NCBI RefSeq assembly: GCF_002572525.1
Contig: NZ_PDBS01000001.1
Span: 1,054,001 to 1,118,000, forward strand
DNA length: 64,000 bases
From: Natrinema sp. CBA1119
GTDB lineage: Archaea; Halobacteriota; Halobacteria; Halobacteriales; Natrialbaceae
Reading direction: 5' to 3'
The notes below the pieces were generated by a model. That model had not been told where the DNA came from. It ran no database searches and saw only the letters and a list, made by a program, of their open reading frames with translations. Positions 55,192-64,000 of this stretch are shown in pieces; the first letter of the stretch is position 1; every line of letters begins with the position of its first letter. The translations under genes and the position numbers were made by a program.

Positions 55192-55641
55192 ATGAGCGAG
55201 GCTCGCCAACTCTTTTGGAAAGAGCTCAACGATTCGATTAGACAGAGACCCAATACCCCACTCCGTGAAACGGCTCGAGCTGATTCTGAGAACGACAGCT
55301 GGAGACCACAACGTCATTTGACGGATTCAGTTGGCTACAGTTTCAATCTCCCTGTGCGGAACAATGAGATTATGGTGTACCTCGTAGCCAAAAGAACACG
55401 GGATAGGGAAACTATTTTTGAGTATCTCAGTGAATACCGGGAGGAAGTTGAGGGAGCATTCGAGGAGACGTTAGAGTGGAGACCGTCTGATGGAACGTAC
55501 AAGCTCATTCTTAGGCGGGAAGCCGATCTCGAAAATAGAAGAGATGAATGGGTGAACTACTGTGACTGGTTGATCGATCGAGCCGAAAGACTCTATTTTG
55601 CTACTGGCCCTTACCTCGCCGGTTTTGATACGAAAAAGTAG
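55192..55641 (+). CDS. DUF4268-like protein
   Basis: A 149-residue protein of the island. S-E-A-R-Q-L-F-W-K-E-L-N-D-S-I-R at the start and N-R-R-D-E-W-V-N-Y-C-D-W-L-I-D-R-A-E at the end resemble DUF4268 (restriction-related or helicase-linked C-terminal units), with W-R-P-S-D-G-T-Y-K-L between. The likeness is by eye only. It stands alone and its role is unknown. Confidence 0.5.
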   Translation: MSEARQLFWKELNDSIRQRPNTPLRETARADSENDSWRPQRHLTDSVGYSFNLPVRNNEIMVYLVAKRTRDRETIFEYLSEYREEVEGAFEETLEWRPSDGTYKLILRREADLENRRDEWVNYCDWLIDRAERLYFATGPYLAGFDTKK

Positions 55642-60225: not shown

Positions 60226-60400
60226 TCTCTTTCGAAAATTTGTTTCAGTGGCCGGCTGTATACAGGGTGCAAACATAACGCCTTCGCCTATGTTGATCAG
60301 CCTGATTTTGGTAGAGAGTTGGGGGCGAAAGCGCTTGTACACGATACAAGGCGCGAATTACACAGTGAGATTCCCTGTTCCTACAACTCGGGTCCGCTGG
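60226..60400 (+). pseudogene. Short coding-like fragment
   Basis: Plus-strand frame reading G-C-K-H-N-A-F-A-Y-V-D-Q-P-D-F-G-R-E-L-G-A, then A-L-V-H-D-T-R-R-E-L-H-S-E-I, of natural protein composition, without a start and running into the 3' end of the convergent methyltransferase gene. Possibly the relic of a gene removed when the methyltransferases or the IS arrived. No family recognised. Confidence 0.3.
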
Positions 60401-61733
60401 CGACTACGATATACTCCTCGGTCATTGTGTCCCCGGCACGATTGCTGTGGGGCAAGGTTTTGTCCTTGATCAAGCGAGGCAACACCGCTCGAGTCGTGTA
60501 GCCGGCAGTTTCACATAGTTCGCGGACGATTTCGTGGGTCGGGATCCAAACATCGCTCATCCGGCGGTTGGCCACAACCCAGGCCACCGGTTGGCCTGGT
60601 TTGATGATTTTCCCGATGGTCTCGATGACCGAATTGAAGTCAATGAAGAACTCAAGTGCGTCTTTCGACCGACCTTCGACTGACTTTAAATCCTCAATAA
60701 CAGAGTGCAGCGACTCCGAGTCAGCCCGAAGACCAGAAAGCGTGCGTTCGACGTTGATACCGCCGAGACCGCGTTTGTCGACATCGACCATGCGGTCGTA
60801 AGATTCACCGAACGCGAGTGTCGAGAGGTTCGTCGAAAATTCACCGTAGGCGACCGTTGTTTGATGGTCGCCGTACGGCGGAGACGTAATAATGATGTCC
60901 GCACAGTTCTCCTCCAATCCTAGCGACGGGTGCTCTAGAGAGTTTCGTGAATCAGCCTGCTCGATCCGAGTGTGTATCGATGGATCGGCCACATTCAGGA
61001 AAGATCGCATCCGTTGTCGATTATCTCGTAGCACAGTCATGATCTCATTGAAGACATTCGGGTTGTGGTCCGTACGGTCGGCCGGCGCTAGTCTGTAGCG
61101 CTTGAATTCGCCCTGTCGTTGGTAGCTCACTTTCCGCGCACACTTCGCTAGGCCAATGCGCAAGAACCGGATGATGTCTCTCGAAAATTGATCGGCGAGG
61201 GAATCCAACCTCTCACGGACTATGAACAGTTGTGTCAACTGGGGTTCGGGGAACCAGTCAGTGCTGACCTGTTTGGCTTCGGCCGCAAGCTCCGGGGGAA
61301 GCACGTCTTCGCCACGGTCGACGGCCGCTCTGACGTTTCTGAATCGAGTTTGGAGATTCCCTAGGAGCGCTTCCATGGCGGCATCTAACTTGTCCAAATC
61401 GAGGGGTGTCGACTTAGCCTTGCTCAGTTCAACTGCGAATGGATTGATGTCATTGGCGATAGCATTGATTCCCCGCAACCGCGCTTCGGTTGCGGTCGTA
61501 CCGCTGCCAGAAAACGGGTCGTACACTGTGTCTCCGTCCGAAACTTCACCAGTGGACTTAAAGTGAGAGAACAATCCCGCTGGGAGTTGCGGGGGCATTC
61601 GGGCGGGGTATTTATGGATCCCATGGGTCAGGTACTGCGTATCGGCGTTCGCGAACGTCCAGTCATAATCATTTAAGGAGTGTGATTGCTGACCGACCGC
61701 GTTGAGGGTGAGTTGGTTCGAATGCTGTCTCAT
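60381..61733 (-). CDS. DNA methyltransferase 1 of a divergent paralogous pair
   Basis: A 450-residue site-specific DNA methyltransferase. Y-L-T-H-G-I-H-K-Y-P-A-R-M-P-P-Q is near 34-49, the SAM-binding D-P-F-S-G-S-G-T-T at 72-80 and the catalytic T-S-P-P-Y-G at 283-288, so the order is SAM motif, about 200-residue variable region, catalytic motif. TSPPY is usual in N4-cytosine enzymes; N6-adenine remains possible. ATG 61733 is used; a TTG 12 bp upstream is in frame. The pair with the next gene and their divergent orientation suggest a two-methylase modification unit. Confidence 0.88.
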   Translation of the reverse strand: MRQHSNQLTLNAVGQQSHSLNDYDWTFANADTQYLTHGIHKYPARMPPQLPAGLFSHFKSTGEVSDGDTVYDPFSGSGTTATEARLRGINAIANDINPFAVELSKAKSTPLDLDKLDAAMEALLGNLQTRFRNVRAAVDRGEDVLPPELAAEAKQVSTDWFPEPQLTQLFIVRERLDSLADQFSRDIIRFLRIGLAKCARKVSYQRQGEFKRYRLAPADRTDHNPNVFNEIMTVLRDNRQRMRSFLNVADPSIHTRIEQADSRNSLEHPSLGLEENCADIIITSPPYGDHQTTVAYGEFSTNLSTLAFGESYDRMVDVDKRGLGGINVERTLSGLRADSESLHSVIEDLKSVEGRSKDALEFFIDFNSVIETIGKIIKPGQPVAWVVANRRMSDVWIPTHEIVRELCETAGYTTRAVLPRLIKDKTLPHSNRAGDTMTEEYIVVASGPEL

Positions 61734-61876
61734 AGGAGTATCCAAAAGCTCCGATATTGGTCCAGTCCGCAGGGGAGATTGATGAGTTCACCGATCCGTA
61801 GACTGGAATGGGATTGGTTGCGTGTCTGTGTGATACACAAGAAGATCCAATAGCAAAGAATTTACCAGGAGGCTTA
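61734..61876. promoter_or_regulatory. Divergent promoter with a clear Shine-Dalgarno site
   Basis: The 143 bp between the two methyltransferase starts. GGAGG at 61868-61872 stands 4 bases before GTG 61877, a perfect complement to the 16S tail and rare in haloarchaea, where most transcripts are leaderless. It decides the start of the plus-strand gene. Confidence 0.55.
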
Positions 61877-63265
61877 GTGAGTGAAAAGCAGAGCCCAATG
61901 GCAAGTCATTCAGATGGTTATTCTACTACCTATCCCGGCGATCGCAACCTCGCGGAGATCAACTTCGAATTCGCGAACTGCGATACCTCGTATCTAACGC
62001 ATGGCTTGCATAACTATCCAGCCCGGATGCCACCACAGATACCGAAGTTCTTCTTTGGCCACTATCTCGGAACGGATGATATCCAACCAGGTGACACCGT
62101 TTGGGATCCATTCGGGGGTAGCGGGACCACCGCCTTGGAGGCCCAACTCTTGAATCTGCGAGCGACGGTCAGCGACATCAACCCGCTTGCATGTATGATC
62201 ACGCGAGCAAAGACCACCCCAATTGATATTGAGTGTTATCGCGAGGCCTGGCGGGTCTTTGCTCGCGGCCGGCTTCCAGAGTTCTCGAACACCATCACCG
62301 AGGCTTTCCAACAGATCGACGAGTCATACACAGCCGGGGACGATATGGCGGCGCTGCGCCCCGAGGTAAGCGAGAGATTCGAGTGGTTTCCCAAACCACA
62401 ACTCTACCAGCTCCGTCATCTCCGTCAACGCATTGACGCGGTCGAAACCGCCTATGGGGAGACGATCGCCCGGTTCTTCCGCATCGCCCTGTCCATTACT
62501 GCGCGCGAGGTCAGCTACCAGCGAACAGGCGAGTACAAGCGCTATCGCATCCCCGAAGAGGCGCGTACAGAGCATGACCCAGACGTGTTTCGGATCTTTA
62601 CACGGGAACTTCGAAGCAACCTCCAACAAATGGATCGATATATTAGCGCAATCCCCAATCCAGAGCCAGTAGTGGTCTCCCATGGGGACTCGCGGACGGC
62701 AACTCACATCCCAACTAACTCAGCAGACATCGTCCTCACATCACCGCCATATGGTGACCATGACACAACCGTTGCGTATGGTCAATACTCCCTTGACCCG
62801 GCCGTCATTTCAATGAAAGTTTCACGTGCCATGATGAAGGAAGTAGACAAGATGGGCTTAGGCGGGCGCAACAACCAGGGTGACAGACTCAGATCACTGG
62901 CAACGCGATCTGAGAAGCTTGGTGACATCCTGGACGTACTTCGGTCCCAGAATGGACGGAGCGGAGACACTCTCTCCTTTTTCAATGATTACTTTGACGT
63001 GATCAAGCAGGTCAAGCGCGTGCTTCGTGGCGGGCAGCCAGCCGTGTTCGTCGTGGCAAACCGTACTGTCTCAGACGTACAGATCCCCCTAGATCAGATT
63101 ACGATGGAGTTGCTGGAGAACGTTGGCTTTGAACCCCAAATGATCCTGTCTCGCTCACTGCCATATAAGACGCTTCCATACGCAAACTCCCCACGGAACG
63201 TGGCGGGCCAGACTGGTTCGATGATGTCCAATGAGAACATTGTAATCGCTCGGAGTCCGAACTAA
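61877..63265 (+). CDS. DNA methyltransferase 2 of a divergent paralogous pair
   Basis: A 462-residue paralogue of methyltransferase 1. It has Y-L-T-H-G-L-H-N-Y-P-A-R-M-P-P-Q at about 39-54, D-P-F-G-G-S-G-T-T at 77-85, V-S-Y-Q-R-T-G-E-Y-K-R-Y-R in the middle (also in the other copy) and T-S-P-P-Y-G-D-H at 288-295. The two proteins align along their whole length, but the region between the motifs differs, as expected if each reads its own strand or sequence. GTG 61877 is set by the GGAGG before it; ATG 61898 is the alternative. Confidence 0.88.
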   Translation: MSEKQSPMASHSDGYSTTYPGDRNLAEINFEFANCDTSYLTHGLHNYPARMPPQIPKFFFGHYLGTDDIQPGDTVWDPFGGSGTTALEAQLLNLRATVSDINPLACMITRAKTTPIDIECYREAWRVFARGRLPEFSNTITEAFQQIDESYTAGDDMAALRPEVSERFEWFPKPQLYQLRHLRQRIDAVETAYGETIARFFRIALSITAREVSYQRTGEYKRYRIPEEARTEHDPDVFRIFTRELRSNLQQMDRYISAIPNPEPVVVSHGDSRTATHIPTNSADIVLTSPPYGDHDTTVAYGQYSLDPAVISMKVSRAMMKEVDKMGLGGRNNQGDRLRSLATRSEKLGDILDVLRSQNGRSGDTLSFFNDYFDVIKQVKRVLRGGQPAVFVVANRTVSDVQIPLDQITMELLENVGFEPQMILSRSLPYKTLPYANSPRNVAGQTGSMMSNENIVIARSPN

Positions 63266-63535
63266 GCGGAACCTATAGATGATCGACGATCACCGAAAAG
63301 TTGAGTTCCAAGTCTATTGTGATTATTGAATCTCCGTAGCCAGGACCCCGTACGAAGTTATGATATTTTCAAGGAGCGACATCTCAGTCTCAAGATACGG
63401 TTCCACGAAGGGTTCGAGAGCAGTTCGAACGTGGATCATTGGGTAGTAAAATTATGATGCGATTTCGGGATCGCACCCCTTGTGTCAATTGGATACCAAT
63501 AACATCTATAATACTCTATTGATTTATCTAGTCTA

Positions 63536-64000
63536 GTGTCTCTCTCCTCAATTACGGATGCAGCCGTCCGATGTGAAGAGAAACCGGAGTTGACGCTATG
63601 GTTCGGTCAGCCATTCTCGATCGGTAGTGACCTTATGTCGTTCGGTGACGTTGAACTTGCGGCCGTGGATACGTCGTTGGATGCCCTTAATCGAAATCAG
63701 AGTCTTACGATACAGAACCCACTACCGGCCGATGAACTCCTCCTCAGTATCTGTCTAGGGTACATTCGCTTACAAAACCCTAGATTTCCCACCAAGGGGA
63801 TCATCGGCCAAGGAAAATCACTCTGTTTGTTTCCGGCCCTCTCGAAAGGTTACGTGACCAATTTTGACAATATTCGTCGTACTGGTGTAGGTGAAATGCC
63901 GAAACTGATCGACCGAGAGTCGATCGGTGCGATGAGTGAAATCGATGGGGAAGCAGATCTCTATACTGCCAAACATGGGATCGGTCTGGACACTGTTCCT
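63536..64000 (+). CDS. Unrecognised gene, cut by the window end
   Basis: An open frame from GTG 63536 to the window edge, 155 residues visible. TATAATAC at about 63508-63515 lies 25 bp upstream, so the transcript is probably leaderless. The product starts S-L-S-S-I-T-D-A-A-V-R-C-E-E-K and holds K-G-I-I-G-Q-G-K-S-L-C-L-F, which formally fits a GxxGxGKS P-loop but lacks a strong preceding strand, so ATP binding is uncertain. No family recognised. Its place beside the methyltransferase pair makes it a candidate nuclease or helper. 63266-63535 holds no other gene. Confidence 0.7.
   Translation, partial: MSLSSITDAAVRCEEKPELTLWFGQPFSIGSDLMSFGDVELAAVDTSLDALNRNQSLTIQNPLPADELLLSICLGYIRLQNPRFPTKGIIGQGKSLCLFPALSKGYVTNFDNIRRTGVGEMPKLIDRESIGAMSEIDGEADLYTAKHGIGLDTVP

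Follow-up and report, generated by a model that had tools for sequence, protein, structure and literature searches.

Gene content at the edge of the window

The window analysed here, a stretch of 64,000 nucleotides from Natrinema sp. CBA1119, ends within what is, by its profile matches, a 14 kb haloarchaeal defence island with a DrmE-DrmA-DrmB core. Features past 64000 were located on contig C1 of the genome (G000:C1), with the window numbering carried on (L002 coordinate + 55000), giving the following arrangement:

60381..61745, minus strand: mtA, amino-DNA methyltransferase (from the open reading frame list, Pfam, PADLOC, motifs and the ortholog in genome G102)
61746..61897, no strand: intergenic region between the divergent mtA and mtB with their putative promoter, delimited by the ortholog-supported mtB start at 61898
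61898..63265, plus strand: mtB, paralogous amino-DNA methyltransferase (listed open reading frame 61808-63265, conserved protein from 61898)
63536..64000, plus strand: drmE, 5' part in the window (full gene 775 aa, to 65863; PF24955, DrmE_N, E 1e-48 in the window part)
65853-69257, plus strand, past the window: drmA (PADLOC DrmA)
69260-71101, plus strand, past the window: drmB (PADLOC DrmB)
71181-72080, minus strand, past the window: o299, winged-helix-like gene
72232-74505, plus strand, past the window: GmrSD, type IV-like nuclease (Pfam domains)

The open reading frame at 63536 leaves the window open-ended and is complete in the genome, where the full protein matches PF24955 (7e-84) and PF24957, DrmE_C (7e-67), in Pfam, as well as the PADLOC DrmE model. 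The sequence-only reading had proposed a candidate restriction or defence locus, grouping the two methyltransferases with the gene that follows, and in this it was borne out: the next gene, neither a housekeeping nor a transposon gene, is the drmE of a DISARM system, with drmA and drmB downstream. The accompanying suggestion that this cut-off gene could be the nuclease was rejected: the profile search gives DrmE, already for the part inside the window. A TATAAT about 25 bp ahead of the drmE GTG, seen directly in the sequence, makes it plausible that drmE has its own promoter.

DrmA is a YprA-family SF2 helicase (PADLOC DrmA, 2e-126) that aligns with the solved DrmA at E 1e-52 with intact Walker motifs; the trigger loop and V1296, parts of DrmA known to gate or sense DNA, fall outside the region alignable by sequence. 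Its DUF1998-type partner DrmB was matched by PADLOC DrmB (5e-34), and its C-terminus by the solved DrmB (E 1e-4). GmrSD carries both GmrSD_N (DUF262, PF03235) and GmrSD_C (DUF1524, PF07510) above cut-off, domains that it has in common with known GmrSD and SspE proteins together with the DGQQR and EHIxPQ motifs, although only its N-terminal part aligns with the solved SspE.

We are highly confident that this is a DISARM locus, and its gene content makes it a variant of the known system. DrmE with both Pfam domains, DrmA and DrmB occur in the same order and orientation as in DISARM class 2 (drmMII-drmE-drmA-drmB-drmC), and here, too, a methyltransferase gene lies directly upstream of drmE, mtB occupying the place that DrmMII takes in class 2 relatives. 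In contrast to class 2, DrmMII and the PLD nuclease DrmC are absent and two amino-methyltransferases are present instead; canonical haloarchaeal loci also have a DrmA longer by about 120 aa. DrmC had no match at the locus (L002/L003), PLDc_2 proteins occurring only elsewhere in the genome, and DrmMII (5mC) had none near it, the sole PF00145 match of the genome lying on contig C8, divided between two reading frames. Neither the open reading frames nor Pfam or PADLOC gave a recognisable type II nuclease from 60381 to where GmrSD ends.

When DrmE was compared by fold with solved structures, the top matches were almost all SF2-type helicases, the best at E 1e-5; TM-scores relative to the query were only 0.16-0.28 and the model has a mean pLDDT of 74, and we treat a possible SF2-helicase-like nature of DrmE as a lead only. 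The motif GxxxxGK[ST] is present in five of the six DrmEs of its own clade, with GxxxxNKS in the sixth, and in no other DrmEs. A Walker A motif is expected between the first strand and helix; the predicted model puts this one between helix 67-80 and strand 95-99, and we do not claim a P-loop of an active ATPase. We also considered a nearby tRNA-Thr as an integration site, and no 16-base stretch of the tRNA recurred in the searched region.

The methyltransferases and their relatives

The two full-length, divergent paralogous methyltransferases of the sequence-only reading were confirmed, with intact motifs. Both match N6_N4_Mtase in Pfam (E 1e-11 and 1e-9), among all PADLOC models both score best with one MTase_II profile, PDLC03322 (E 6e-122 and 5e-119), and they are 40% identical across 468 aa (E 1e-116), a paralogy far beyond chance. 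Motif I (DPFSGSGTT in MtA, DPFGGSGTT in MtB) and motif IV (TSPPYGDH in both) are intact, and in MtA motif I precedes TSPPY. A TSPPY-type motif IV favours an m4C product, and the chemistry is probably cytosine-N4 methylation. The open reading frame proposed for MtB, 61808-63265, is present; its start at 61808 is probably wrong, because the ortholog in G102, a genome of a second genus, begins at the residue equivalent to 61898, the probable MtB start, so that the first 30 residues of the listed frame are probably not translated. For MtA, TTG at 61745 or ATG at 61733 is the probable start. The G102 orthologs are 89% (mtA) and 91% (mtB) identical, with dN/dS of 0.15-0.24 for mtA and 0.13-0.21 for mtB; both genes are intact and under purifying selection. 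A fold search returned the generic Rossmann methyltransferase fold, with TTHA0409 as the best DNA methyltransferase, and carried no information on specificity, and no relatives of MtA/MtB or DrmA turned up in the viral collections searched.

By homology, MtA and MtB are members of the methyltransferase family that accompanies MvaI/BcnI-type nucleases in restriction-modification systems. A single relative lies near PF15515-type (MvaI/BcnI) genes in 12 of 17 genomes, and relatives also stand beside such nucleases on Lactococcus and Latilactobacillus plasmids; in the remaining 5 genomes no such nuclease lies near the relative (L082, L086, L088, L090, L091/L093). Identity is 46-50% to most haloarchaeal single copies and falls to about 31% for the copy on the Lactococcus plasmid. 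Unlike these systems, the locus has two diverged paralogs rather than one methyltransferase, and PF15515 had no match anywhere in the G000 or G102 genomes. MtA and MtB have strongly diverged from the nuclease-linked family (branches of 1.2 and 1.6): of 177 positions that do not vary among ten single relatives, both copies depart at 16, and at 14 of these in different ways. The characterised nucleases R.MvaI and R.BcnI cut the pseudo-palindromes CCWGG and CCSGG, so that one methyltransferase can serve both strands, and the BcnI system has two methyltransferases sharing one specificity, not one per strand (PMC5974420).

A natural deletion and the DrmA clades

G000 and G102 share the island as one conserved block. 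In the latter it has other flanks, and drmE-A-B is deleted with a 230 bp drmB scar remaining, which makes G102 a natural deletion control. mtA, mtB, the winged-helix gene o299 and GmrSD are all still intact there, and their persistence after the loss indicates that the pair can do without the core. The methyltransferases are no unlinked solitary genes, their shared neighbours o299 and GmrSD having been kept in a second genus.

Our census of DISARM loci rests on sampled genomes of the class and is not complete; it was not built on a separate contig scan with DrmA, in which narrow patterns returned only four loci. In the haloarchaeal DrmA tree, 6 of 6 loci in the clade of this locus (support 99/99) are without DrmC and DrmMII, whereas both are carried by 5 of 5 loci in the sister (5mC) clade, indicating that a change of core lineage goes with a change of both the marking and the cutting arm. 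Where the sister clade has DrmMII, this clade has unrelated amino-methyltransferases, or none. Sister loci within the clade (Halorubrum salinum GX71, Halorubrum salipaludis WN019, Haloarchaeobius sp. FL176, Haloplanus rubicundus pCBA1112-01, a Haloquadratum MAG and G136) share DrmE-A-B without DrmC and DrmMII but have other methyltransferases, or none, and no GmrSD-o299; several carry UvrD/AddAB-like and PD-(D/E)XK genes, or an SNF2/PLD protein, beside the core. Haloarchaeobius sp. FL176 likewise has a divergent pair directly upstream of drmE, made up of unrelated, beta-order methyltransferases; the single related methyltransferase adjoining the core in Halorubrum has its own MvaI-type nuclease, and the Haloplanus core has no recognisable methyltransferase within the roughly 20 kb stretch examined. 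The mtA/mtB pair with an intact core occurs in one sampled genome only. PADLOC's type II rule requires all of DrmA, B, C, E and MII (PMC9252829), and, applied strictly, would miss these loci.

Proposed role of the methyltransferase pair

We moderately favour a DISARM variant in which a DrmE-A-B core without DrmC and DrmMII works with a recruited methyltransferase pair that marks self DNA; that MtA and MtB are the modification arm of this locus we infer with slightly more belief than doubt. Another reading, unlikely but the most serious of the others, would make mtA/mtB, o299 and GmrSD a separate modification-linked unit in which GmrSD cleaves, with drmE-drmA-drmB an independent cassette between them. 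G102 retains exactly these four genes intact without the DISARM core, with the methyltransferases under purifying selection, and GmrSD homologs (60% and 46%) stand beside related single methyltransferases in two DISARM-free loci (L085, L087). However, o299 was not found next to those two homologs, the drmB scar shows that the core was once in the island and was lost there, and a nuclease role alongside a protective methyltransferase would be unusual for the GmrSD family, whose enzymes cleave DNA that is modified (PMC8565348).

It is less probable still that the pair is the remnant of an MvaI/BcnI-type system whose nuclease was lost, leaving solitary methyltransferases by chance beside DISARM. 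The relatives with a nuclease neighbour (12 of 17 genomes, and the plasmids), those in 5 genomes without such a neighbour, and the lack of an MvaI/BcnI nuclease in G000 and G102 are in line with such a loss, and the divergence of both copies also fits altered orphan enzymes; yet two conserved copies, under purifying selection and so strongly diverged, suggest that the two took on new roles as a pair instead of decaying. As for the sequence-only proposal of a type II-like system for an asymmetric site, with one methyltransferase per strand and a nuclease or helper encoded by the downstream gene, we regard it as very improbable. Two divergent paralogs of similar size would suit it, and type IIA enzymes for asymmetric sites often come with one methyltransferase or two, of which each acts on a single strand (PMC4081073), but we found no positive evidence for it: the downstream gene is drmE and no type II nuclease follows, which refutes the nuclease part, the relatives are mostly single methyltransferases of systems whose nucleases, in the characterised members, target pseudo-palindromes, and the BcnI pair shares one specificity.

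In the favoured DISARM variant, mtA/mtB would have been recruited from the MvaI/BcnI-type family into the class 2 DrmMII position and would most likely mark the host's own DNA, the probable modification being N4-methylcytosine at CCNGG-like sites or sites derived from them. The DrmA helicase and DrmB may load onto unmarked incoming viral DNA having free 5' ends, and DrmAB would then travel along it, blocking replication, with destruction possibly left to GmrSD or host nucleases and DrmE acting as a degenerate SF2-helicase-like accessory. Serratia DrmAB is methylation-sensitive and loads on 5' overhang DNA (PMC9142583). GmrSD and o299 probably add a further line of defence, directed at viral DNA that is modified, by analogy with the pEFER island, in which BREX, a methylation-based system against unmodified DNA, lies beside the GmrSD-type BrxU, directed against modified DNA (PMC8565348); there the partner is BREX, here a DISARM core, and complementary protection here is putative. 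Among the genes listed for Woesearchaeales proviruses, of another phylum, are DrmE-DrmA-DrmB and an MTase_II gene, DrmC not being listed and that account describing no divergent pair or GmrSD; the likeness concerns the MTase_II label, not a comparison of the methyltransferases (PMC11705971).

More tentatively, and with doubt outweighing belief, the self-mark may be interchangeable, the same DrmE-A-B core working with unrelated methyltransferases and telling marked from unmarked DNA instead of recognising one chemistry, with the loss of DrmC offset by differing neighbour nucleases (GmrSD, AddAB-like, SNF2/PLD). In the published model, DrmA senses base methylation without a fixed sequence, and the lineage bears on how DISARM discriminates self from non-self: with unrelated amino-methyltransferases replacing the 5mC enzyme, and without DrmC, it is natural material with which sensing of chemistry, site or DNA ends alone could be told apart. 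Examples of differing marks are 5mC in the sister clade, the paired TSPPY-type enzymes here and the paired beta-order enzymes in Haloarchaeobius.

A DISARM core beside the methyltransferase pair

We read the island, about 14 kb from mtA to a GmrSD-type gene, past the window edge in L002, a stretch of the 5.06 Mb source genome whose coordinates plus 55000 give window numbering. The window itself spans G000:C1:1054001-1118000.

Genes of the island (window numbering)
60381-61745, minus strand: mtA, methyltransferase; real, intact ORF
61808-63265 as listed, start by ortholog at 61898, plus strand: mtB, methyltransferase; real, intact ORF
From 63536, first of the drmE-drmA-drmB run: drmE, 775 aa; PF24955/PF24957, PADLOC DrmE
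After drmE: drmA, 1134 aa; PADLOC DrmA; solved Serratia DrmAB complex 7s9v
After drmA: drmB, 613 aa; PADLOC DrmB; solved Serratia DrmAB complex 7s9v
After drmB, minus strand: o299, winged-helix-like gene
After o299, plus strand: GmrSD-type protein, 757 aa

The sequence-only reading had proposed two full-length paralogous methyltransferases, and this was confirmed: MtA and MtB are 40% identical across 468 aa, both retain motif I (DPF[SG]GSGTT) ahead of motif IV (TSPPYGDH), and the top PADLOC model for both is MTase_II PDLC03322 (E about 1e-120). Each sits on a long branch of the methyltransferase family tree, and both deviate at 16 of the 177 positions invariant across ten single relatives, 14 of these having changed in different ways, indicating divergence of the two proteins both from the rest of the family and from one another.

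The truncated gene at the window edge, previously suggested as a possible nuclease or helper, is instead drmE: its 155 in-window residues match DrmE_N (E 1e-48), and reading beyond 64000 with a profile search yielded drmE followed by drmA and drmB, a single run in which gene ends overlap or nearly touch. The locus is a defence locus, as had been proposed, and the restriction-system reading is replaced by that of a DISARM variant. Neither DrmC, the usual PLD nuclease of class 2 DISARM, nor DrmMII, its 5mC methyltransferase, was found beside this core. Island GC is 54%, compared to 62% for the window, which fits horizontal transfer.

A fold search with an AlphaFold2 model of DrmE returned SF2-type helicases at low TM-score and, as clear Walker motifs are not in place, suggests that DrmE may be a degenerate helicase-like partner. 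A GxxxxGK[ST] string at DrmE residues 88-95 (window about 63797-63820) occurs in five of the six DrmEs of its own clade, the sixth having GxxxxNKS, and is absent from all other aligned DrmEs; it was rejected as a Walker A motif owing to its wrong structural position.

Relatives of the methyltransferases and of the core

Among relatives of MtA/MtB (METHYLTRANSFERASES), MtB matches at E <= 1e-40 occur in 19 of 391 genomes, the divergent pair being present only in the source genome and in G102, a genome of another genus of the same family. A PF15515-type nuclease gene lies in the same stretch as the MtB relative in 12 of the 17 other genomes and in none of the remaining five; no PF15515 gene exists anywhere in the source genome or G102. 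Sequence matches link the haloarchaeal nuclease to R.MvaI (E 9e-21) and R.BcnI (E 1.5e-10), and plasmid relatives of MtA/MtB in Lactococcus and Latilactobacillus adjoin annotated MvaI/BcnI family nucleases. A halobacterial survey predicted the sites CCWGG (42%) and CCSGG (18%) for its 'probable_T_II_M' family (PMC6471742), which would correspond to the MtA/MtB family.

Of the genomes sampled from the class, 12 of 391 carry DrmE_N; one family has it in 1 of 146 genomes. DrmE relatives turned up in 4 of 125 genomes from the source genome's family, and a further family has DrmA relatives (E <= 1e-100) in 16 of 170 genomes, a count that takes in more distant DrmA types. In a maximum-likelihood DrmA tree of haloarchaeal class 2-type loci, with two Halorubrum species as one row, a branch of five loci carries DrmMII upstream of drmE and DrmC downstream; the adjoining genome G348 has DrmC, with a weak DrmMII-like match located apart. 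The source locus falls in a branch (support 99/99) with the two Halorubrum species, Haloarchaeobius sp. FL176, Haloplanus rubicundus, a Haloquadratum MAG and G136, and both DrmC and DrmMII are missing from these loci, an absence that is weaker for Haloquadratum, whose contig is short (17.6 kb). Since the five-locus branch has both genes and DrmE-A-B-C is present in two genomes of the phylum from outside the haloarchaea (one of them also showing a DrmMII-like gene), the loss looks derived within one haloarchaeal branch. Among the class 2 loci, an otherwise canonical one in G255 has drmE in two frames (404 + 330 aa; L028 7929-10146), possibly a pseudogene or an assembly error, and in G287 a GmrSD-like protein lies upstream of a canonical one (L029 2731-5196).

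Gene neighbours differ among members of the DrmC-less branch. The source locus has mtA/mtB and GmrSD. In the Halorubrum locus, an MvaI_BcnI nuclease (PF15515, 3.5e-45) accompanies a single relative of MtA/MtB. Directly upstream of drmE, Haloarchaeobius (L010 13638-17691) has divergent beta-order methyltransferases flanking a 508 aa Mrr_cat protein; this pair is unrelated to MtA/MtB and gives an independent example of paired methyltransferases adjoining the same DrmE-A-B core. The Haloquadratum MAG has a beta-order methyltransferase downstream of the core, G136 an SNF2/PLD protein and, at the stretch edge, a DPPY-containing methyltransferase-like gene, and in Haloplanus no methyltransferase was found near the core within the stretch examined.

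In Halorubrum and Haloplanus, a weakly CARF-like 158 aa gene and a 362 aa gene with no family assigned (44-46% identity between the two genera) adjoin drmE (L030 12321-13882; L094 16331-17838), hinting at a signalling accessory of the branch. Three DrmC-less loci, Halorubrum and Haloarchaeobius included, carry a UvrD helicase with a PD-(D/E)XK domain and a second PD-(D/E)XK gene downstream of drmB (L030 177-4537; L010 1005-5413; L094 1-4376), a possible DrmC substitute.

A natural deletion of the core

G102 aligns with L002 5349-19536 (about 14.2 kb), an interval that opens shortly beyond the mtA stop and closes shortly beyond GmrSD; the alignment ends at these island borders, with nothing aligned beyond. 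The 230 bp between mtB and o299 in G102 (L077 10988-11217) match the end of drmB, its last 77 codons, at 92% and contain an in-frame stop, indicating that the G102 island formerly had the core and lost drmE, drmA and the greater part of drmB through deletion. All of mtA, mtB, o299 and GmrSD are intact in G102, with pairwise dN/dS to the source genome, from two methods, of 0.15-0.24, 0.13-0.21, 0.19-0.34 and 0.08-0.14, respectively, values that span the whole divergence rather than the time since deletion.

Precedents and proposed function

DISARM has been reported in archaea, as has DrmE-A-B with an MTase_II gene in Woesearchaeales proviruses (PMC11705971); the Haloplanus rubicundus DrmE already carries that name at NCBI. 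The PADLOC type II rule demands DrmA, B, C, E and MII (PMC9252829), and the source locus, having neither DrmC nor DrmMII, fails it. We found no description of the DrmC-less haloarchaeal branch or of the divergent pair in the open-licence literature searched, and the available portion of a YprA-family helicase survey that covers DISARM relatives does not describe this branch (PMC12458937).

The locus is best read as a variant of DISARM whose modification arm has been exchanged. In the characterised system, a DrmA loop keeps DrmAB inactive, the complex loads on 5' overhang DNA, base methylation lowers its ATPase activity, and DrmC is reported to be non-essential and is frequently missing (PMC9142583). 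The analysis shows the gene content and the evolutionary pattern, and we infer every functional step: MtA/MtB would mark the chromosome, DrmAB and DrmE would target unmarked incoming DNA, and GmrSD would handle modified DNA, much as BrxU complements BREX (PMC8565348).

Elsewhere in the source genome, its only PF00145 5mC methyltransferase match (G000:C8:520988-522444) is split between two reading frames and probably reflects a broken gene or a sequencing error. To the right of the island, about 2.4 kb from its end, a DUF7845/winged-helix protein (L003 173-1798) is followed by a tRNA-Thr (1877-1948), for which a repeated stretch was looked for and not found. Left of the island, a small DUF4268 protein (window 55192-55641) matches the PADLOC candidate PDC-S11 (E 2e-14) and is possibly another defence gene.
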